Part shown: in pieces, positions 4,941-16,892 of the stretch
Position numbering within the stretch: the first letter of the stretch is position 1
Layout of the letters: every line of letters starts with the position of its first letter
Source of the DNA: Polaribacter sejongensis
GTDB taxonomy: Bacteria > Bacteroidota > Bacteroidia > Flavobacteriales > Flavobacteriaceae
DNA length: 64,000 bases
Direction of reading: 5' to 3'
NCBI RefSeq assembly: GCF_038024065.1
Contig: NZ_CP150667.1
Span: 558,001 to 622,000, forward strand
The notes under the pieces: model-generated
The model's input: the letters and a program-made list of their open reading frames with translations, nothing else
What the model was told of the DNA's origin: nothing
Database searches by the model: none
Made by a program: the position numbers and the translations under genes

Positions 4941-6407
4941 TTGAAAGAAACTAAAACACTACCGCTATTTTCTACTTACGAACTAGATTCTAGATTTTAT
5001 GATGAACTACTTAAGGATAATAATGAAGTTAGGGAGGTGTATAAAACCTTATATAATTTATTTGGTTCTTACTCAGTGTCTGAATTTGATCGTTTAAATA
5101 AACAAGCAAAAGATTCTTTTTTTAATCTAGGAATTACGTTTCAAGTTTATGGTGATAAGGAGGTAAAAGAAAAAATTTTCCCTTTTGATTTATTTCCAAG
5201 AATTATTAATAATAAAGAATGGACTACAATAGAGAAAGGTGTTTTACAAAGAAGTAAAGCTTTAAACCTTTTTCTTTGGGATGTTTATCATGATCAAAAA
5301 ATTATAAAACAAGGCATTGTACCGGAAGATTTAATTAAATCTTCTGCCAATTTTTTACCAGAAATGATAGGATTAGATCCTCCTGGAGGCATTTATAATC
5401 ATATTTCGGGTACAGATTTAATAAAACATTCTGATGGTAAGTATTATGTATTAGAAGATAATATTAGATGTCCTTCTGGTGTTAGTTATGTTATTGGGAA
5501 TAGAAATGCTGTAAAACATGCATTGTTTGGTGTTTTTAATCAATATAACGCACATACGGTTGTAGATTATGGTTCTAAATTATTAGATACTATGGAATCT
5601 GTAAAACCAAATGGGGTAGATGCTCCTGTTTGTGTTATTATTACACCTGGTGTATATAATTCTGCTTATTACGAACATTCATTTCTTGCAAAACAAATGG
5701 GAGTTGTTTTAGTAGAAGGAAGAGATTTATTTGTAGAAAATGGTTTTGTGTATATGAGAACTATTTATGGACCAGAAAAAGTAGATGTTATATACAGAAG
5801 AGTAGATGATTTATTTATAGATCCTTTAGTCTTTAAAAAAGATTCTATGTTAGGGGTTCCTGGTTTATTTTCTGTGTATCAAAAAGGAAATGTTACTTTG
5901 GTAAATGCTCCTGGTACAGGTGTGGCAGATGACAAAGCTGTGTATACTTATATGCCAGAAATTATTAAATATTATTTAGATGAAGAACCTATTCTAAATA
6001 ACGTACATACCTATCATTGTAGTAGAAAAGATGAGTTAAAATATGTTATAGAAAACATAGATAAACTAGTTGTAAAGCCTGTAGATGAGTCTGGAGGATA
6101 TGGTATATCTATTGGAAGTAAACTAACAAAAGAAGAAATAGAAACTGTTAAGAAAACAATTTTAGCAGCACCTAGAAAATACATTGCTCAACCTATAATG
6201 TCATTATCTACTCACCCAACGTATATAGATGAAAATGAGTCTTTCGAATCTAGACATGTAGATTTAAGAACGTTTACTCTATTAGGAAAAGATACCGATT
6301 TTGTATTAAAAGGAGGTTTGTCTAGAGTTGCACTTAAAAAAGGAAATTTAATAGTAAATTCATCTCAAGGTGGAGGGTCAAAAGACACTTGGGTTTTAAA
6401 AAAATAA
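4941..6407 (+). CDS. Circularly permuted ATP-grasp protein (type 2, formerly DUF404/DUF407)
   Basis: A 488-residue stand-alone circularly permuted ATP-grasp enzyme. Family motifs in order are VLEDNIRCPSGVSYVIGNR, VDVIYRRVDDLFIDPL, NAPGTGVADDKAVYTYMPE, the glycine-rich nucleotide loop VVKPVDESGGYGISIG, and the C-terminal LIVNSSQGGGSKDTWVLKK. ATP-grasp enzymes join a carboxylate to an amine through an acyl phosphate; the natural substrate here is unknown. The start is the TTG at 4941, because an in-frame stop lies just two codons upstream and no methionine occurs in the next 100 residues. The alpha-E gene follows 6 bases after the stop and is surely in the same transcript. Confidence 0.88.
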   Translation: MKETKTLPLFSTYELDSRFYDELLKDNNEVREVYKTLYNLFGSYSVSEFDRLNKQAKDSFFNLGITFQVYGDKEVKEKIFPFDLFPRIINNKEWTTIEKGVLQRSKALNLFLWDVYHDQKIIKQGIVPEDLIKSSANFLPEMIGLDPPGGIYNHISGTDLIKHSDGKYYVLEDNIRCPSGVSYVIGNRNAVKHALFGVFNQYNAHTVVDYGSKLLDTMESVKPNGVDAPVCVIITPGVYNSAYYEHSFLAKQMGVVLVEGRDLFVENGFVYMRTIYGPEKVDVIYRRVDDLFIDPLVFKKDSMLGVPGLFSVYQKGNVTLVNAPGTGVADDKAVYTYMPEIIKYYLDEEPILNNVHTYHCSRKDELKYVIENIDKLVVKPVDESGGYGISIGSKLTKEEIETVKKTILAAPRKYIAQPIMSLSTHPTYIDENESFESRHVDLRTFTLLGKDTDFVLKGGLSRVALKKGNLIVNSSQGGGSKDTWVLKK

Positions 6408-6413
6408 AAAAAT

Positions 6414-7427
6414 ATGTTAGCAAGAGTAGCCAATAACCTTTTTTGGATGGGAAGATATATTGAACGTTCAGAGCACTTAGCAAGGTTTTTAAACGTAAAT
6501 TATTTTTCATCTTTAGACGCACCAGATGAGTTATCACAATCTAGACAATTTGTATTAAGATCTGTAATGTACATGTCTGCCAATGAAATTATAGATGCAG
6601 ATATTACATTAGAAGAAGAAGCTGTTTTATTTAATGTTGGTCTAAATTTAGAGCAACCGTATTCAATTGTAAATACCTTTATTAATGCGCATGAAAATGC
6701 AAGAAGCTCTAGAGATTTAATTTCGACAGAATTATTTGAATGTATCAATAGAATTAATCATAGTTTTAAAGGGTATCCAATTGAAAAATTTGTAAAAAGC
6801 GGTTTGTATGAGTTTACTTCTATGGTAACGCAATCTGCTTCAGAAGTAAGAAGTAAAATTAAAGGTACGCTTTTGCATGATGAAGTATACGCCATTATTA
6901 TGTTAGGTGTATATTTAGAAAGAGCAATACAAGTATCCAGAATTATTAATTCTAAATTAAGTGATGTTGCGGCAGCCAAAGAAATTTATGGAGATGTAAT
7001 AGATGGTAGTTACCAATGGTCAACGCTTTTAAAATGTGTGTCTACACATGATATGATGCGTAGTTTTTATAAAAAAACACCTTCTAGAAAAACCACTTTA
7101 GAGTTTATTATTTTAAACGGAAAATGTCCAAGATCTATAAAAAGTTGTTTGTATCAAATATATAAGTATATCTGTATTATTTCTAAAAACAGACAAATTA
7201 CAGATGATTCTGCAGCTTTTTTAATTGGTAAAATGAAAGCTGATTTTGAGTATAAACTCATAACAGATATTGAAGATAATATAGAAGAATTTATTGCTGA
7301 TTTAATAGAGCATTTAGTTTTAATTGCTGATAAATTAGAAGATAATTATTTTAATATTTCAGACGCTATAGTAAAACCAGATGTTAAAGTTGCTACTGAA
7401 ATTAAAAAACAAACTCAAAAGCAATAA
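6414..7427 (+). CDS. Alpha-E domain protein (DUF403)
   Basis: A 337-residue, mostly helical protein that begins with the alpha-E signature MLARVANNLFWMGRYIERSEHLARFL. Alpha-E domains have no proven activity but almost always occur beside or fused to circularly permuted ATP-grasp domains and next to transglutaminase-like genes. Iyer and Aravind's survey of amidoligases predicted that such sets make or attach peptide-like groups. The gene is translationally close to the ATP-grasp gene and ends before a terminator shared with the convergent second half of the cluster. A lysine- and glutamine-rich tail (KKQTQKQ) ends the protein. Confidence 0.87.
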   Translation: MLARVANNLFWMGRYIERSEHLARFLNVNYFSSLDAPDELSQSRQFVLRSVMYMSANEIIDADITLEEEAVLFNVGLNLEQPYSIVNTFINAHENARSSRDLISTELFECINRINHSFKGYPIEKFVKSGLYEFTSMVTQSASEVRSKIKGTLLHDEVYAIIMLGVYLERAIQVSRIINSKLSDVAAAKEIYGDVIDGSYQWSTLLKCVSTHDMMRSFYKKTPSRKTTLEFIILNGKCPRSIKSCLYQIYKYICIISKNRQITDDSAAFLIGKMKADFEYKLITDIEDNIEEFIADLIEHLVLIADKLEDNYFNISDAIVKPDVKVATEIKKQTQKQ

Positions 7428-7480
7428 TATTTAGCGTAAAAATAATTGCCTTATTTAAACGATTATTTTAAAAAACAATA

Positions 7481-7517
7481 AACCTCAAAGTTTTTAAATG
7501 CTTTGAGGTTTTTTTTA
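7481..7517. terminator. Terminator between the convergent halves of the ATP-grasp/transglutaminase cluster
   Basis: Arms AACCTCAAAG and CTTTGAGGTT with a 10-base loop and a long T run after the right arm; the minus strand has a shorter A/T flank, so it may serve both directions. Confidence 0.85.
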
Positions 7518-7536
7518 GTTTTATTTTTTTAAAAGT

Positions 7537-8457
7537 TTAAGACTGACTCTGGCTTTGACTTTGATAATTTTTGGCAGGCCTTAAATCTACAGCTACATCC
7601 ATTTTACTTTTACCTGTACTGTAAATGACTCCTTTTAATGGAGGTACATCATAATAATCTCTACCGTGAGCAACAACTATATGTTGGTTTTTTGGTATTT
7701 GATTGTTAGTTGGGTCAAAATCTATCCAACCTAAAGTTGGGATAAATACAGAAAACCATGCATGAGAAGCATCTGTACCAATCAGTTTTTCTTTTCCTTC
7801 TGGTGGTAGTGTTTCTATATATCCACTTACATATCTGGCAGGTAATCCCATAGACCTAACACAAGCAATAGCTATTTGAGCAAAATCTTGACAAACCCCT
7901 TTTTTCTCTTTCATTACTACTTTTAAAGGTGTTGCAATGTTTGTAAATCCAGAAACGAAGTCGAAATCTGTAAAAATACGTTGCATTAATTCGTAAGAAG
8001 CTTCATACAAAGATCTTTCAGGCTTAAAAGAAACCAAAGCATATTCTTTAATAACGGTACTCATGTCAGAAATTAAAGGAGAACCTAAAACAAATTGTCT
8101 AGCTTCAATAATGTCTAGCTGGGTTCCTTTTAATAATTTAAGAGCTTCTTCTATGGTAACTTTTTTTCCTTCAGTTAAATTTTGTCCTTCTATTTGTATA
8201 TCATAATCTCTAGAAACTTTACTACGTGCAATAACAACTAGTTCTTCATGACTTTGCTGAATAGAAAAACGAGTAACTGTATTTCCAAAAAAATCGAGTC
8301 TTTCTGAAATATCAGTAGGTTCTGGACTAATTTCTAAAGCGTATTCTAATACAGTCTGTCCTTTAAAACTTTTAGGTTTTAACGTGGTTATATTATGACA
8401 AAAGGAAGCACCGTTTTCATAACTATATTTTGTTTTGTGCCAAAGATCAAAAATCAT
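7537..8457 (-). CDS. Transglutaminase-like protein (N-terminal transglutaminase domain plus catalytic core)
   Basis: A 306-residue cytoplasmic protein with a beta-rich N-terminal domain (about 1-90) and a transglutaminase/protease core. The catalytic triad is seen as C189 in KKGVCQDFAQ, H232 in ASHAWFSVF and D248 in WIDFDPTNN. Bacterial members act as thiol peptidases or amide-forming enzymes. No signal peptide is present, so it should act in the cytoplasm with the ATP-grasp proteins. It is the last gene of the minus-strand group, and its ATG is separated by one base from the stop of the fused ATP-grasp/alpha-E gene. The protein ends in a QSQSQSQS repeat that may vary in length. Confidence 0.87.
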   Translation of the reverse strand: MIFDLWHKTKYSYENGASFCHNITTLKPKSFKGQTVLEYALEISPEPTDISERLDFFGNTVTRFSIQQSHEELVVIARSKVSRDYDIQIEGQNLTEGKKVTIEEALKLLKGTQLDIIEARQFVLGSPLISDMSTVIKEYALVSFKPERSLYEASYELMQRIFTDFDFVSGFTNIATPLKVVMKEKKGVCQDFAQIAIACVRSMGLPARYVSGYIETLPPEGKEKLIGTDASHAWFSVFIPTLGWIDFDPTNNQIPKNQHIVVAHGRDYYDVPPLKGVIYSTGKSKMDVAVDLRPAKNYQSQSQSQS

Positions 8458-8458
8458 A

Positions 8459-11029
8459 TTAATTAGAAATTTTTCTATCTACCAACTGTTTTTGTTGCTG
8501 AGAGTGGTTAAAGTAAGTGTCTGAAACAGATAAAGATGTTAAGTGTAATAAATCACTTAAATCAGACAGTAAATTGTCTAACTTTTTACGCATATTAGAT
8601 GCTTCATCAATTTCTAGAATTTCTTCTAGCGATAAACTTTCAATTTTTTGAATTACCGTATTGATGTTTTTTTGACAAATAGTCATTTCTACAGATGTAT
8701 TTGTATTCGGTAACTTATCAATATCTTTCTTAATCCTTTTTACTTGATACATTAAAGATCTAGAATATTCTTTATCTAAAAGTAATAACTTTAAGACGTT
8801 TTCTATACTTAGATAAGACTTGTAACTGTATCTATAAATGTTTAAACTTTCGTGACTATTTAAAAGTGATTCTAAAACTTCATACTCTAATTCCTCATTA
8901 TAATTTACAATAATTAAAGACCTAAATTTCTCTATAGTCATAGATGCTTGTTCTATCTGCAAACCAATAAAGTAGAGTAGAAGTCCTTGTCTTACTAATA
9001 TACTTTCTTCTGACAAAGCCATAAAAGCAATCAATCTTGTAATTATTTTATCAAAGAACTTAGATAACGTAGAAATAGTGTAAACCTTTTCTTCTTTAAG
9101 TTTTGTAAGTTGTTTTTGAATTCCATCAAAAACACGCCACATATCTTTAGACCATAGATTTCTAAGGGAATAATAAGAATTGTTAAAACTCTGCATAGAT
9201 TGAGCAAAACCTCCAATTCTCTGGTTATCTAAAGTAAGCGACTTTAATTCTTTAAGAGGATTCTTTAATGCTTCCTCTTCATTTTCTCCTGTAAAACCAG
9301 GAAACGTAGATGTAATGTTTGTAATAGATTGAAATAATATTTTTAAACTTTCAGATTCAGATTTTCTTTCATCATTATATTGTACATGCGTCATTTGGTT
9401 TAAAACCATACGTAAATACCTTGCTGTAAATAAAGTTCTACCCAAATATCTACCAGACCAATATAGGTTTTCGGCAGTATTACTAGGTACGTCATTAATA
9501 CTTTCTGCCTGATTGGAAACGCTCTTATTCCAAGAATAGTTTTGTAAGTAATTTTGTTTTTTATCACTAACAATCCAAAAATCTTTACTAGTTCCTCCTC
9601 GTTGATTAGATACAAAAAGTTCTTCACGCTCTGTGGCAACTCTAACTAAACCACCAGGCATAACGCTATAACTATCTTGTTTTGCTATAGAAAAAGTTCT
9701 ACACACAATTTTGCGAGGTTCTAATTTATCATCAATAAAATTAGGAGCTGTAGAAAAAGATATTTTTTCTTGTGCTACAAATCTATTTGGGTTTTCTAAA
9801 ATTTCTTCTTTTAGTTCCTTTAATTCTTCTTTGCTTAAAAACTCACAAAAATAGATATGTTCTCTATGTGATCTGTCTATTCTTTTTACTACATAAGAAG
9901 GTAAATCTTCTAAAACATGTTTTCTTTCTTTTTCTTGTCCGCACCACCAAGAAGCAATTTGAGGTAGAATTAACTTTTCTTTCAAGAAAAATTTGCAAAT
10001 ATTCTCCATAAACGGAATTAAAGCAGGGTTTTCTAAAACACCACTTCCAATAGGGTTTACGATGGCAACGTTTTGTAAACGAACCACTTCTAATAAACCA
10101 GCAACTCCTAAGTAAGAATCTTCTCTTAATTCTAGAGGATCCATAAAGCTATCGTCTACACGTCTTAAAATAACATCAACTTGTTTTAATCCTTTTAAAG
10201 ATTTTAACCAAACTTTTCCGTGTCTTACCACTAAATCATTTCCTTTTACCAAAGGATGACCTAAAAATGAAGACAAATAAGAATGTTCGAAATAGGTTTC
10301 ATTATGTGGACCAGGTGTTAAAATAACCACCATTGGGTTCTCTGAATTAGACGGAGCTACACTTAATAATAATTTGTTAAAATCATTAAAAAAAGTAGAA
10401 GGTTGCCTAACGTTTACATGCTTATATATTTCAGGAATAATTTTAGTTGTAGAAAATCTATTTTCTAAAGCATATCCCATCCCAGAAGGGGCTTGTGTTC
10501 TGTCATTTACAACCCACATTCGACCGTCTGGACCTCTCGCTAAATCTACTGCGTGTACCAGTAATTGTTTTGCTGTTTTATATTCAATTTGATCACAAGA
10601 ACGTAAAAAACCACGATGTGCGTAAATTACTTCGGGCGGAATAATTCCGTTTTTAAGCAATTCACGTTTTCCGTATAAATCTTTTAAAATAAGGTTTAAT
10701 ATTTCAGATCTTTGTTGAATTCCTTTTTCAATTTCGCTCCATTCTTTCTGATGGATTATAAACGGAACTACGTTTAAATTCCAAGGTCTATTTAACCCTT
10801 TAGGATCGTTATATACATTATAGGTAACACCATTTTCTGCCAATAACCAATCTATATCAACTTGTTTAGAAGCTAATTTTTTAGGTCCAATTTTTTGTAA
10901 ATTGTCTAATAAAACTTTCCAATCTGATGTGTCTTCCATTTTAGAGATTAATAGTTCATCATATTTACTTTTATTTAAAAAATAATCGTGTAAGATTGTT
11001 TTTTCAATTTGATTTTCTTCTATCGTCAT
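8459..11029 (-). CDS. Fused circularly permuted ATP-grasp and alpha-E protein
   Basis: An 856-residue fusion that joins in one chain the two domains encoded separately at 4941-7427. Residues 1 to about 480 are ATP-grasp-like (VVNDRTQAPSGMGYALENR, VDVILRRVDDSFMDPLELR, SNQRGGTSKDFWIVSD), and about 500 to 856 are alpha-E (NTAENLYWSGRYLGRTLFTARYL). Where the stand-alone paralogue has the glycine-rich loop VKPVDESGGYG, this protein reads VKRIDRSHREHIY, so the nucleotide loop is altered; this may be typical of the fused subfamily or may mean loss of ATP turnover. The gene sits between the DUF2126 gene, 27 bases upstream, and the transglutaminase gene, one base downstream. Confidence 0.88.
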   Translation of the reverse strand: MTIEENQIEKTILHDYFLNKSKYDELLISKMEDTSDWKVLLDNLQKIGPKKLASKQVDIDWLLAENGVTYNVYNDPKGLNRPWNLNVVPFIIHQKEWSEIEKGIQQRSEILNLILKDLYGKRELLKNGIIPPEVIYAHRGFLRSCDQIEYKTAKQLLVHAVDLARGPDGRMWVVNDRTQAPSGMGYALENRFSTTKIIPEIYKHVNVRQPSTFFNDFNKLLLSVAPSNSENPMVVILTPGPHNETYFEHSYLSSFLGHPLVKGNDLVVRHGKVWLKSLKGLKQVDVILRRVDDSFMDPLELREDSYLGVAGLLEVVRLQNVAIVNPIGSGVLENPALIPFMENICKFFLKEKLILPQIASWWCGQEKERKHVLEDLPSYVVKRIDRSHREHIYFCEFLSKEELKELKEEILENPNRFVAQEKISFSTAPNFIDDKLEPRKIVCRTFSIAKQDSYSVMPGGLVRVATEREELFVSNQRGGTSKDFWIVSDKKQNYLQNYSWNKSVSNQAESINDVPSNTAENLYWSGRYLGRTLFTARYLRMVLNQMTHVQYNDERKSESESLKILFQSITNITSTFPGFTGENEEEALKNPLKELKSLTLDNQRIGGFAQSMQSFNNSYYSLRNLWSKDMWRVFDGIQKQLTKLKEEKVYTISTLSKFFDKIITRLIAFMALSEESILVRQGLLLYFIGLQIEQASMTIEKFRSLIIVNYNEELEYEVLESLLNSHESLNIYRYSYKSYLSIENVLKLLLLDKEYSRSLMYQVKRIKKDIDKLPNTNTSVEMTICQKNINTVIQKIESLSLEEILEIDEASNMRKKLDNLLSDLSDLLHLTSLSVSDTYFNHSQQQKQLVDRKISN

Positions 11030-11056
11030 ATTTCATGCTACCTATAATAAATTCCC

Positions 11057-14000
11057 CTACTTTTTTCTTAAATCTAGGGTATAAGGAAATTCAAAATTAA
11101 CAGGTAATTCTTTAAACTTAAATCGCTTAGAACTACTGTTGGTTTCTACACTTCTACTAGTGCTTTCTGTATTTGGGTTGATACTTTCCACAGGATCAAT
11201 TTCACCTTGTGTATGTCCAAATTCCCAGAAACGATTAATTCGTCTCGATTCTGCTTCATAACTATTTACTGGATATTCATCATAAGATCTTCCTCCTGGA
11301 TGCGCTACAAAATAAGTACAACCTCCAATAGAGCGTTTATTCCAAGTATCTACAATATCAAAAACAAGTGGAGTATCTACAGGGATTGTTGGGTGTAAAG
11401 CAGAAAACGGATCCCAAGCTTTATAACGAACACCTGCTACATACTCTCCATGAACGCCTGTTTTGTTTAATTGTACTTTAACGCCGTTACAACTTAACAC
11501 AAAACGGTCTTCGTTAAAATTAGAAACTTTTACTTGTAATCTTTCTAATGAAGAATCTACATATCTAGCAGTTCCACCGCCAGTGATTTCTTCACCCAAA
11601 ACATTCCAAGGTTCTATACCAGCTCTTAATTCTAAATGAATATTATTAATGTCTACCATCCCATGTAATGGGAATCTAAATTCGAAAAATGGATCGAACC
11701 AATCTTCTTTAAATTCGTATCCTGCTTTATTTAATTGGTCTACAATATCTTTAATGTCTTCTCTTACGTAATGTTCTATTAAGAATTTATCGTGTAATTC
11801 TGTTCCCCAACGAACTAAATTATGTTCGTAAGGTTTTTTCCAGAACCATGCAACCAAAGTTCTAACCAATAACATTTGTACCAAACTCATTTTAGGATGT
11901 GGAGGCATATCAAATCCACGTAATTCTAAAATCCCTAATCTTCCTGTAGAAGAATCAGGAGAGTATAATTTATCAATACAAAATTCTGCTCTGTGCGTGT
12001 TTCCTGTTAAATCAGTTAATAAATGTCTAAACAATCTATCTGTTAACCAAAAAGGAACTTCGCCATCTTTCGGAATTTGATTAAACGCAATTTCTAACTC
12101 GTATAAATTGTCTAAACGAGCTTCATCAACTCTTGGTGCCTGACTCGTTGGACCAACAAATGAGCCCGAAAATAAATAAGTTAATCCTGGGTGATGTTGC
12201 CAAAAAGTTAATAAACTACGCAATAAACTTGGTTTACGTAATAAAGGACTATCTGCTGGAGTGGTACCTCCTAAAGTAACATGGTTTCCTCCACCAGTTC
12301 CGGTGTGTTTACCATCTAACATAAACTTTTCTGTACCTAATCTTGCTTTTTTAGCTTCATCATAGAAAGTAAATGTGTTTTTACACAAGTCCTCCCAATT
12401 GGTAACTGGGTGAACGTTTACTTCAATAACCGCAGGATCTGGTGTTATTTTTAGAGACTCTAATCTGTTATCATGTGGTGGTTCATACCCCTCCATAATA
12501 ACAGGTACATTTAATTCTCTTGCCGTAAGCTCTATAGAGGCTATTAAATCTAAAAACATTTCTGCCGTTTCTAAAGGCGGTAGAAATAAATATAATTTTT
12601 GATCTCTTATTTCTGCACAAAGTGCGGTACGTACAAAATAGTCTGGTTGGTTTGGCTCTAAACCATAATCTAAAAATTCTTGATGTCTTTTCTTAACAAT
12701 ATTTTTAAAACTCGGTAAACGCTTCTTTTTAGAAAATAAGTCTGGTTCATGAATTGGGAAAATCTCGTGTTCTGGTTTTTCCATTAAAGAATCTAATGGT
12801 AATCTTAATCCCATAGGAGAATTCCCTGGAGTTAAAAAGATGTGTTGTCTTCTAAAAGTCCAAGCACTACTAAACCATTTGTCTTCTGTTTTATTTAAAG
12901 GAAGTAAATAACCAACAGGTGTAGATGCGCCTTTTTCATAAATTTCATGTAATTTTTTGCGTGCTAAAGAGCCGTCTTTATCTTTTGCAGGATCTATATC
13001 TATCGGTAAATTACCTTGCTCCCATAAATGATAAAAAGGATCTTCGAAACTTGGTAAAATATGTTCTCCAGAAACGCGCAAGTATTTAGTAAGCGTTTCT
13101 AAAAATAATTTATCAGAATTTTCTGGAACAATAGGATTATCAGCATAGCTGGATAAATACTTTTTGTTGAACCAAATTGGTCTACCATCTTTACGCCAAC
13201 AAATTTCTATTTGCCATCTTGGTAAAGGTTCTCCAGGATACCATTTACCTTGGGCATGATGCAAAACAGCTCCATTACCAAATTTGTCATACAAACCTTT
13301 GGTTAAGTCGCCTGCTAATTTTCTTTTATTAGGTCCATCTGCAGTTGTGTTCCATTCTGGAGATTCTAAATCATCTATAGATATAAAAGTAGGTTCGCCT
13401 CCCATTGTTAAACGAACATCTCCTTTTTCTAGTTGTTTTTCTACTTTATTTCCAAGTTTGTATACTTCTTTCCATTGTTCGTCTGTATACGGTTTTGTAA
13501 CTCTTGGAGATTCTAAAATTCTTGTTACTTTATTTTCAAAAAAGAATTCTGTTTCACATTTATCAGACATTCCAGAAACTGGTGCAGCACTTTCAAAAGA
13601 AGGTGTACATGCTAAAGGAATATGACCTTCACTTGCTAAAAGACCAGAAGTGGCATCAAAACCAATCCAACCAGCACCTGGTAAATATACTTCTGCCCAA
13701 GCGTGTAAGTCTGTAAAATCTTCTTCTGGACCAGAAGGACCGTCTAAAGATTTTTCATCTGATTTTAATTGCACTAAATACCCAGAAACAAAACGAGCTC
13801 CAAAACCTAAGTGACGTAAAGTTTGTACAAATAACCATGCATAATCTCTACAAGAACCATTTTTTTGATTCAAAGTTTCTTCACAAGTTTGAACACCAGG
13901 GTCCATTCTTATATTATAATTTAAAAACTCATAAATTTTTTGATTGATATCAATTAAAAAATAAATGGTTTTTCTTGGCGTATAATCTAATGTTTTTATA

Positions 14001-14389
14001 AACTCTTCTAATAATTTTCCTTTATCAGTAATTTCTAAATAAGGTTGTAGTTCTTTCTTTACAGTTTCTGTATACACAAAAGGATATTCTTCTGCATACT
14101 CTTCAATAAAGAAATCAAAAGGGTTTATGGTTTTTAAATCGGCAATAATTTCAACATCAATAGACATCTCATCTGTTTTCTCAGGAAAAACCAAACGTGC
14201 CACATAATTTCCAAAAGGATCTTGTTGCCAATTAAAGAATTGTTCTTCTGGCGTAATTTTAATAGAATAAGATTCTATAGGTGTTCTGGAGTGTGGTGCT
14301 GGTCTTAGCCTAAAAATATGAGGAGATAATGATACTTTTCTATCATATTTATAAGTCGTTTTGTGTGATATTACGATTTTTAATGCCAT
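11057..14389 (-). CDS. Transglutaminase-DUF2126 (putative amidoligase) fusion protein
   Basis: An 1110-residue protein and the first gene of the minus-strand group. Residues 1 to about 290 form a transglutaminase-like unit with C180 in NGSCRDYAW and H229 in DLHAWAEVYLPG. Residues from about 310 to 1100 match DUF2126, a family classed as a putative glutamine-synthetase/GCS2-like amidoligase; recognisable stretches are TMGGEPTF, GTGGGNHVTLGGTTPADSPL and FVGPTSQAPRVDEAR. The pairing suggests one half makes and the other breaks or transfers an amide bond. The substrate is unknown. There is no signal peptide, so a cytoplasmic place is likely. Length is normal for this family. Confidence 0.88.
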   Translation of the reverse strand: MALKIVISHKTTYKYDRKVSLSPHIFRLRPAPHSRTPIESYSIKITPEEQFFNWQQDPFGNYVARLVFPEKTDEMSIDVEIIADLKTINPFDFFIEEYAEEYPFVYTETVKKELQPYLEITDKGKLLEEFIKTLDYTPRKTIYFLIDINQKIYEFLNYNIRMDPGVQTCEETLNQKNGSCRDYAWLFVQTLRHLGFGARFVSGYLVQLKSDEKSLDGPSGPEEDFTDLHAWAEVYLPGAGWIGFDATSGLLASEGHIPLACTPSFESAAPVSGMSDKCETEFFFENKVTRILESPRVTKPYTDEQWKEVYKLGNKVEKQLEKGDVRLTMGGEPTFISIDDLESPEWNTTADGPNKRKLAGDLTKGLYDKFGNGAVLHHAQGKWYPGEPLPRWQIEICWRKDGRPIWFNKKYLSSYADNPIVPENSDKLFLETLTKYLRVSGEHILPSFEDPFYHLWEQGNLPIDIDPAKDKDGSLARKKLHEIYEKGASTPVGYLLPLNKTEDKWFSSAWTFRRQHIFLTPGNSPMGLRLPLDSLMEKPEHEIFPIHEPDLFSKKKRLPSFKNIVKKRHQEFLDYGLEPNQPDYFVRTALCAEIRDQKLYLFLPPLETAEMFLDLIASIELTARELNVPVIMEGYEPPHDNRLESLKITPDPAVIEVNVHPVTNWEDLCKNTFTFYDEAKKARLGTEKFMLDGKHTGTGGGNHVTLGGTTPADSPLLRKPSLLRSLLTFWQHHPGLTYLFSGSFVGPTSQAPRVDEARLDNLYELEIAFNQIPKDGEVPFWLTDRLFRHLLTDLTGNTHRAEFCIDKLYSPDSSTGRLGILELRGFDMPPHPKMSLVQMLLVRTLVAWFWKKPYEHNLVRWGTELHDKFLIEHYVREDIKDIVDQLNKAGYEFKEDWFDPFFEFRFPLHGMVDINNIHLELRAGIEPWNVLGEEITGGGTARYVDSSLERLQVKVSNFNEDRFVLSCNGVKVQLNKTGVHGEYVAGVRYKAWDPFSALHPTIPVDTPLVFDIVDTWNKRSIGGCTYFVAHPGGRSYDEYPVNSYEAESRRINRFWEFGHTQGEIDPVESINPNTESTSRSVETNSSSKRFKFKELPVNFEFPYTLDLRKK

Positions 14390-14902: not shown

Positions 14903-15307
14903 ATGAATATTTCACATATAGAGCATTTAGGTATTGCTGTTGAAAATTTAGAAGTTTCAATAAAATATTACGAAGAAGTTTTAGGTTTAAAATGTTATTC
15001 TATAGAAGAGGTTGTCGATCAGAAAGTGAAGACAGCCTTTTTTTTGGTAGGTAATACAAAAATAGAATTATTAGAGAGTACTTCTCCGGATGGTCCAATA
15101 GGTAAATTTATAGAGAAAAAGGGACAAGGTATTCATCATATAGCCTTTGCAGTACCAAATGCAACAGAAGCTTTAAAAACTGCAGAAGAACGCGGAGTGA
15201 GACTTGTAGATAAGGTTTCTAGAAAAGGTGCAGAAGGGTTAAATATTGGCTTTCTCCATCCTAAATCTACCTTAGGAGTGCTTACAGAACTTTGTTCTAA
15301 AGAATAA
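14903..15307 (+). CDS. mce: Methylmalonyl-CoA epimerase
   Basis: A 134-residue glyoxalase/VOC-fold enzyme that interconverts (2R)- and (2S)-methylmalonyl-CoA, linking the mutase to the carboxylase or decarboxylase. The N-terminal [24 protein letters not shown] and the central [11 protein letters not shown] carry the metal-binding histidines, and the end [14 protein letters not shown] carries the glutamate typical of the family. Length is normal. It is the first gene of the operon and lies 25 bases before the carboxyltransferase gene. Confidence 0.93.
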
Positions 15308-15332
15308 TTTTAAAGAAAATACTTATATAAAA

Positions 15333-16892
15333 ATGGCAAATCAAGATAAAATTAACGAACTCATAGAAAAAAGAGCGGAAGCTAAAATGGGTGGTGGAGA
15401 AAAACGTATCGATTCTCAGCATGCTAAAGGTAAATTAACTGCACGCGAGCGTATAGATATTCTTTTAGACGATGATAGTTTTGAAGAGTTTGATATGTTT
15501 GTAACACACAGAACAAAGTCTTTTGGATTGGATAAACAAATTTACCTTTCGGATGGTGTTGTTACAGGTCATGGTACTATAGACGGCAGAATTGTCTATG
15601 TATTTGCACAAGATTTTACCGTATTCGGAGGTTCTTTATCAGAAACATATGCATTAAAGATATGTAAGGTGATGGATATGGCAATGAAAATTGGTGTTCC
15701 AGTAATTGGTTTAAATGATTCTGGTGGAGCACGTATTCAAGAAGGGGTAAGGTCTTTAGCTGGTTATGCAGAGATTTTTCAAAGAAATATTATGGCTTCT
15801 GGGGTAATTCCTCAAATTTCTTCAATTTTAGGTCCTTGTGCTGGTGGCGCGGTGTATTCTCCGGCTTTAACAGATTTCACTATTATGACAGAAAACACAA
15901 GTTATATGTTTGTTACAGGTCCTAAAGTGGTAAAAACCGTTACTGGTGAAGTTGTTACTGCAGAAGAATTAGGTGGCGCTAAAATTCACTCTACTAGATC
16001 TGGAGTTTCTCACTTCTTAGCAGCAAATGATGAGGAAAACTTATTATTAGTTCGTAAGTTACTAAGTTACTTGCCTTCAAACAATTTAGAAGAAGCGCCA
16101 ATACTTGCATGTAACGACCCAGTTGACAGGTTAGAAGATGCTTTAAATGAAATTATCCCAGAAAATCCTAATCAACCTTATGATATTGTTGATGTAATTT
16201 CAATACTTGCCGATAATGGCGAGTTTACAGAAGTTCATAGAAATTATGCTAGAAATATTTGTGTAGGTTTTGCAAGGTTTAATGGTCGTCCGGTTGGTAT
16301 TGTTGCCAATCAACCAAAATATTATGCAGGTGTTTTAGATATTGATGCTTCTAGAAAAGCTGCACGATTTGTTCGTTTTTGTGATGCCTTTAATATAGCC
16401 ATTGTGACACTTGTTGATGTACCAGGGTTCTTACCGGGAACAGGGCAAGAATATGGCGGAATTATTTTACACGGAGCAAAATTATTATTTGCTTATGGAG
16501 AAGCTACTGTACCTAAAGTTACAATTACACTTCGTAAATCTTATGGAGGAGCGCATGATGTTATGAGTTGTAAGCAACTACGCGGAGATGTAAATTATGC
16601 ATGGCCAACCGCAGAAATTGCTGTAATGGGAGCAAAAGGTGCTGTAGAGGTTTTAGAAGGATCTAATATTAGAAAAATAGAAGATGCGGATGAAAAGCAA
16701 GAGTACATTCAGAAAAAAGAGGATGAGTACACTGCAAGGTTTGCAAATCCTTACATGGCAGCAAAATACGGATTTATAGATGATGTAATCGAGCCAAGAA
16801 ACACTCGTTTCAGAATTATTAGAGCTTTAGAATTACTTCAGAATAAAAAAGATGTAAATCCACCAAAGAAACACTCAAACATTCCATTATAA
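15333..16892 (+). CDS. Carboxyltransferase subunit of methylmalonyl-CoA decarboxylase or propionyl-CoA carboxylase
   Basis: A 519-residue biotin-dependent acyl-CoA carboxyltransferase with two crotonase-like halves. Motifs include [23 protein letters not shown] and [16 protein letters not shown] in the first half and [19 protein letters not shown] in the second. It transfers CO2 between methylmalonyl-CoA and biotin. The family alone does not separate propionyl-CoA carboxylase beta from decarboxylase alpha subunits. The next three genes are gamma, biotin and membrane subunits of a sodium pump, and no biotin carboxylase gene is in the window, so I prefer the decarboxylase. The last A of its stop is the first A of the next gene's ATG. 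Confidence 0.88.

Follow-up and report, generated by a model that had tools for sequence, protein, structure and literature searches.

A probable pseudo-ligase of ancient origin within a nested set of predicted amide-bond genes at a Polaribacter sejongensis locus

Which products of a cluster of five adjacent genes in Polaribacter sejongensis could form an amide bond, and what might the others contribute? The cluster lies in a 64,000-nucleotide stretch of contig NZ_CP150667.1 (positions 558,001 to 622,000), hereafter the window, and combines circularly permuted ATP-grasp, alpha-E, transglutaminase-like and DUF2126 domains, families that Iyer, Aravind and co-workers reportedly grouped, in a comparison of amidoligases, as predicted amide-bond-forming systems. 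In the accessible literature, the family continues to be listed as having an unknown function; through Anbu, it is tied to the proteasome question. The family is also large, with at least about 8000 protein clusters scored for the ATP-grasp/alpha-E fusion and likewise for the transglutaminase-DUF2126 fusion.

A first-pass annotation had described five genes with these domains in two convergent units, and this description is borne out by the open reading frames, by their strands and by Pfam matches scoring far above cut-off. The forward strand encodes a stand-alone circularly permuted ATP-grasp ligase (A; 4941..6407, 488 amino acids; CP_ATPgrasp_2, 527.6 bits), the exact start of which is unsure because its start codon is TTG, and a stand-alone alpha-E protein (E; 6414..7427, 337 amino acids; Alpha-E, 214.8 bits). 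The reverse strand encodes a transglutaminase-like protein (T; 7537..8457, 306 amino acids), an ATP-grasp/alpha-E fusion (AE; 8459..11029, 856 amino acids; CP_ATPgrasp_2, 494.1 bits, and Alpha-E, 179.1 bits) and a protein joining a transglutaminase domain (residues 1 to ~275) to a DUF2126 domain (~276-1108; TD; 11057..14389; DUF2126, 1261.4 bits). Bact_transglu_N and Transglut_core were matched in both T and TD, and NCBIfam gave no name for any of the five proteins. The association of circularly permuted ATP-grasp, alpha-E and transglutaminase in five adjacent genes is the one that the accessible part of the literature describes for amidoligase systems.

The features that mark a catalytic ligase (family, ExN pair, VKP lysine and glycine-rich loop) were all found in window A, which matches the solved structure 3n6x with a profile score of 760 bits and presents D159, E172xN174, D330-D331-K332, K379 and the loop G385-G386-Y387-G388. 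Among 72 aligned stand-alone A rows, E172 and N174 are conserved in 72, as is D330-D331-K332, and the G385-G386-x-G388 loop is conserved in 71, with an X in the remaining row. By eye, these motifs match those of Escherichia coli Gss (D318, E330, N332 and the VKP lysine followed by glycines), where they bind magnesium and ATP. Window E likewise presents the conserved columns E17-R18 and R93-E94-N95.

The fused AE protein departs from this pattern. A tree of 133 ATP-grasp domains (61 AE and 72 stand-alone), inferred with a quick method and Shimodaira-Hasegawa approximate likelihood ratio test (SH-aLRT) support, placed all 61 AE rows, drawn from many phyla, on one side of a single branch with a support of 100. 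The split and fused ATP-grasps, previously annotated as two forms of one gene, are thus resolved by this tree as ancient paralogues, with a single origin for AE. With columns numbered after window A, the ExN pair, the glycine loop and D330 are each present in 0 of 61 AE rows, in contrast to their near-complete conservation in stand-alone A, and in a second genome set the motifs were intact in 12 of 12 canonical proteins (window A included) and in 0 of 10 AE proteins. In window AE, N175 and R177 occupy the ExN positions, E333-N334-P335 stands in place of DDK, and HREH (residues 388-391) in place of the glycine loop. A residue-adding role for the fused paralogue, as proposed earlier, finds no support in view of the loss of both the ExN pair and the glycine loop in every copy of both sets. 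In the alpha-E part of AE, an intact R93-E94-N95 is likewise missing in 9 of 9 proteins, the remainder being retained in part.

Fusion as such does not account for this loss. In the gammaproteobacterial genome G573, an independent fusion of canonical A and E (L179:5241-7877) retains every motif and lies beside a degenerate AE, indicating that motif loss tracks lineage rather than fusion and suggesting that A and E could work as one unit. Nor is AE decaying, given that it is kept across phyla, has conserved replacements of its own and yields a confident 856-residue model with the fold of GspSA and YgiC. Taken together, these features indicate that AE is probably a pseudo-ligase.

The transglutaminases of the cluster, on the other hand, present intact catalytic triads. 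The Cys-His-Asp triad is intact in 55 of 55 T rows (frames shorter than 340 amino acids) and in 81 of 81 TD rows, including window T (C189-H232-D248) and window TD, and the T genes that follow AE, window T among them, form one clade in a transglutaminase tree (support 100/100). The DUF2126 domain of TD models as a glutamine-synthetase fold, with resemblance to glutamine synthetase, GmaS and YbdK, and residues E332, E656, H703, E822 and R824, invariant in 62 aligned rows, are candidate ligase residues of this domain. An alpha-E protein fused to a transglutaminase was identified in a Nitrospirota draft genome (L176:3869-5812, G303), so that natural A-E, T-D and E-T fusions link the parts of the set. 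Outside the window, the host encodes a third transglutaminase ~40 kb upstream (L069:6914-7702), which may be a scattered member of the system because it groups with a Desulforhopalus gene directly preceding an A-E-TD-AE-T run (support 98/98) in that same tree, which also warns of long branches meeting. Additional arrangements of DUF2126 were also observed: a gammaproteobacterium (L193, 360-9824; G491) carries three tandem DUF2126 genes, one of them without a detected transglutaminase domain, and G511, G384 and G482 encode further copies as frames of ~713 amino acids.

The first-pass annotation had also inferred that both units act together, and had proposed to ask whether they always co-occur. 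In a sample of 296 Bacteroidota genomes, alpha-E was detected in 119 and DUF2126 in 12, all of which also encode alpha-E. AE was confirmed as a single reading frame in nine genomes, all nine of which encode a separate alpha-E and DUF2126; in six of them, a stand-alone A was observed next to that alpha-E. The two alpha-E genes are close together in just two of these nine genomes (the host, G000, and G226), which argues that their co-occurrence does not reflect mere linkage. In a sample of 232 Gammaproteobacteria genomes, DUF2126 was detected in 43, all within the 70 that encode alpha-E; AE was assigned to 20 genomes of the sample on frame length and score (ten were read out and confirmed), with a second, canonical alpha-E in 20 of 20, fused to canonical A in G573, and DUF2126 in 18. 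Together with the five-gene runs described below, this pattern favors a single system. The dependence holds in one direction, since every AE genome of these two samples also has a separate alpha-E, and fails in the other, since 110 of the 119 Bacteroidota genomes with alpha-E lack AE (two of the 110 presenting a fragment or weak match only). Among 50 of 80 named genomes with TD, comprising those missing A or AE nearby and one control, alpha-E was found in all 50 and AE in 37 (two as pieces), with a separate alpha-E in 34 of those 37 (two as frames of 226-228 amino acids). Occurrence is hence nested, with alpha-E (usually with A) followed by TD and then by AE-T, and with two exceptions considered below. 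A tenth Bacteroidota AE candidate, in G090, was rejected as it proved to be an overlapping frame. Six Bacteroidota stretches (L034, L039, L043, L078, L079 and L081) present a high-scoring stand-alone alpha-E with no ATP-grasp nearby in the stretch.

Gene linkage was analyzed in the best 80 loci from a TD-profile scan of named genomes covering many phyla, annotated with profiles built in this analysis. AE was found in 53 of these loci, T in 51, A in 45, E in 44 and Anbu in 13, and the complete set could be seen in 30 of the 80, or in 24 of the 57 with long flanks. A co-directional A-E-TD-AE-T run was present in 11 of 80 loci, including Marinomonas, Halioglobus, Desulforhopalus and a Planctomycetaceae draft, and two divergent halves in seven. 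T accompanies AE in 50 of 53 AE loci, and in the other three (L098, L128 and L151) the stretch stops at or within ~300 bases of AE. The convergent layout of the window, also seen in Lacinutrix (L085), is a rearrangement of this five-gene set. Neighbor clustering of open reading frames of at least 110 amino acids placed an ATP-binding cassette (ABC) transporter ATPase and an aldehyde dehydrogenase among the larger groups, each in 6 of 80 loci and mostly in Pseudomonas. A protein of ~415 amino acids also recurs near TD in five loci (L123:6656-7909, L098, L102, L113 and L114), lying between E and TD in L123 and L113, and its L123 copy has no Pfam match. TD, AE and T are likewise present in L092, a metagenome-assembled genome labelled Helicobacter pylori that looks like a mislabelled bin.

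Lower levels of four products were reported for an ntrC mutant of Burkholderia cenocepacia in the accessible part of that study: a DUF404/407 protein, a DUF403 protein, a transglutaminase and a large transglutaminase protein (PMC5491218). The last of these would correspond to the transglutaminase-DUF2126 fusion. Scanning of the 47 Pseudomonadota loci among the best 80 for sigma-54-like sites (at least 9 of 10 positions) identified them at 22 of 64 A or TD starts. The remaining genes of these loci carry one in 9 of 355 cases, and shuffling the upstream sequences 100 times gave a mean of 0.65 and at most 4 cases. The sites are spread over 17 of 38 genera (loci without a genus counted singly), and the enrichment persists among genes with an intergenic gap of 100 bp or more (21/51 versus 6/204; p = 5e-12). 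NtrC-like palindromes follow the same trend (16/64 versus 18/355, some sites being shared by divergent starts; 14/51 versus 12/204 with the gap rule), but not at 10 of 10 positions (0/64 versus 2/355). These putative sigma-54-dependent operon starts in the Pseudomonadota match the published Burkholderia NtrC regulon.

Neither Anbu nor HslV was found in the host genome with PF00227 and an Anbu profile, the latter returning E-values of 4e-105 to 3e-131 for positive controls in 8 of 20 genomes, and Anbu is also missing in six of the nine Bacteroidota genomes with AE. Peptidase_Mx, which occurs beside these genes elsewhere, was not found in the host genome either. Of the families looked for, this leaves T, the N-terminal domain of TD and the third transglutaminase as amide-cleaving candidates.

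We tentatively favor the interpretation that the five genes constitute one system, most likely cytoplasmic, that forms and cleaves an amide bond, with AE as a scaffold or regulator. As judged from family membership and intact motifs, A together with E would activate a carboxylate using ATP and join it to an amine, in the way that synthetases of this fold do for glutathione, glutathionylspermidine and peptide-spermidine. TD would carry a second, glutamine-synthetase-type ligase in its DUF2126 domain, and its transglutaminase, a cysteine hydrolase or transferase on the same chain, would remove or move the attached group. AE would perform no ligation; it may instead bind either that substrate or the complex of A and E, and position or control T, its genomic partner. 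A scaffolding or regulatory role is preferred because AE keeps company with both a canonical alpha-E and T, and because its fold is preserved although the catalytic motifs are lost. In the Pseudomonadota, the system would serve the nitrogen economy, as suggested by the sigma-54-like promoters and by the single published NtrC-dependent case. The conserved pseudo-ligase, the nested set and these promoters narrow the question posed by the family, to A and DUF2126 rather than AE as ligase candidates, to their likely partners and to nitrogen limitation as the condition of interest.

Several observations weigh against this interpretation. AE keeps conserved fold residues (K379 in 50 of 61 rows, K481 in 59 and D482 in 61), and may hence still bind a nucleotide or another ligand. 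The canonical A genes accompanying AE do not form a separate lineage, since the ATP-grasp tree forces 13 or more changes, and this speaks against an A dedicated to AE. For DUF2126, Foldseek alone puts glutamine synthetases at an E-value of ~0.04, and the model has low confidence at residues ~690-820. The nested pattern is broken by G435 and G356, two Gammaproteobacteria with AE but without DUF2126; no stand-alone A was seen near the separate alpha-E of G190, G137 and G283 within the 14-15 kb fetched, the rest of these genomes not having been searched; and in three draft genomes with AE no separate alpha-E was found, one of them (G329, L147) presenting a stand-alone A at a contig edge. In the accessible part of the relevant report, a pull-down recovered no Anbu partner among the proteins of the Anbu operon (PMC6376114). 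Lastly, sigma-54-like sites were found at 0 of 19 Bacteroidota starts, with none upstream of window A or TD, and at just 1 of 18 starts in other phyla, so the nitrogen link is not transferable to the flavobacterial host.

Among known systems, the closest is the Anbu operon (ATP-grasp, alpha-E, transglutaminase and Anbu), which, in the available portions of its descriptions, shares the A and E families and a transglutaminase-like partner, and has predicted amide-bond chemistry without a known product (PMC5666114, PMC6376114). Its canonical ATP-grasp is reported there to release phosphate from ATP (PMC6376114). The window set differs in adding TD, AE and an AE-type T, in a host without Anbu or HslV, and its A-E pair has no adjoining transglutaminase, unlike most Bacteroidota stretches fetched, where one sits near alpha-E. 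The Burkholderia cluster I35_5080-83 has the DUF404/407, DUF403, transglutaminase and large transglutaminase proteins in common with the window; in contrast, no sigma-54 site was found upstream of the window genes, and a fused AE is not named for that cluster in the portions of the source available (PMC5491218).

E. coli Gss, a glutathionylspermidine synthetase/amidase, likewise pairs a ligase with an amidase, but the window set is not a member of this system and no sequence-profile match between Gss and A was found. The Gss amidase, which is fused to the ATP-grasp domain, belongs to a different family from the window transglutaminases. In Mycobacterium tuberculosis, Rv2409c-Rv2411c and Rv2566-Rv2569c probably correspond to both gene groups of the set, TD and the AE fusion among them.

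The cycle might alternatively act on small molecules, with the ligases gamma-glutamylating or peptidylating an amine or polyamine for nitrogen use, in the manner of gamma-glutamyl-amine synthetases, and the transglutaminases freeing the amine or glutamyl group. The fold shared with GspSA and YgiC by the AE model and, by homology, by A, and the likeness of DUF2126 to glutamine synthetase, GmaS and YbdK, are consistent with this option. In the accessible parts of published work, YgiC is termed a peptidylpolyamine synthetase (PMC12568646), polyamine, urea and dipeptide uptake genes fall within the same NtrC regulon (PMC5491218), and a correlation with urea domains is reported for marine metagenomes (PMC3597751). 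The best 80 loci nonetheless present no catabolic gene as a steady neighbor, the ABC transporter ATPase and the aldehyde dehydrogenase being confined to six loci each, and we consider such a route rather unlikely.

A pupylation-like form of protein tagging appears quite improbable. DUF2126 or A would attach a peptide or amino acid, the transglutaminases would reverse the attachment, and Anbu would degrade or trim the products, recycling nitrogen in starvation. A, E and Anbu do occur beside TD in L118, L124, L130, L144 and L157, and the sigma-54- and NtrC-like sites in the Pseudomonadota, along with the Burkholderia case (PMC5491218), fit a nitrogen-related function. The ligases of pupylation (PafA/Dop) are held, in the portion of the source available, to derive from glutamine synthetases (PMC3511204), so that both systems would combine a ligase of this fold with an opposing enzyme; the likeness is limited to these elements. 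The host, however, lacks a detectable proteasome-fold protein, as do most Bacteroidota AE genomes for Anbu; Anbu peptidase activity was not found in the accessible part of its characterization (PMC6376114); the window set includes two further ATP-grasp-type proteins; and no tag protein was identified, no search aimed at a tag gene having been made. An even more speculative extension casts AE and T as the ancient pseudo-ligase/transglutaminase gate of a further bacterial amide-tagging system, in which glutamine-synthetase-type and GSS-type ligases would attach a group and T, held by the dead ligase, would remove it, the cycle being driven by nitrogen status in the Pseudomonadota and by another signal, without a proteasome, in flavobacteria.

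That AE is instead a second active ligase, as the first-pass annotation supposed, with a site rebuilt around R177, Q179 and E333 that would accept another nucleotide or acyl donor, seems quite improbable: its replacements are conserved (R at the N174 column in 54 of 61 rows, Q at the R176 column in 52 and E at the D330 column in 59) and it is retained across many phyla, but no residue reaches a majority at any of the four loop columns (with a gap in 7 of 61 rows at the last) and not one copy retains the ExN pair.

Returning to the window, a hairpin of 12 pairs followed by thymine (7480..7511) lies between the two convergent units and is perhaps a terminator shared by both; it constitutes weak evidence by itself, since the terminator scan returned 7 sites in the region against 3.6 expected. 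Beyond the cluster, a methylmalonyl-CoA epimerase and a carboxyltransferase gene (14903-16892) represent ordinary metabolism, with no link seen to the five genes. The host genome, a single 4.5-Mb contig, contains two alpha-E matches, both inside the cluster. Among named proteins, the best relatives of TD include some from Polaribacter with 88-94% identity, and identity to the Lacinutrix proteins is 92% for A, 88% for TD, 84% for E, 81% for T and, as the lowest of the five, 79% for AE.

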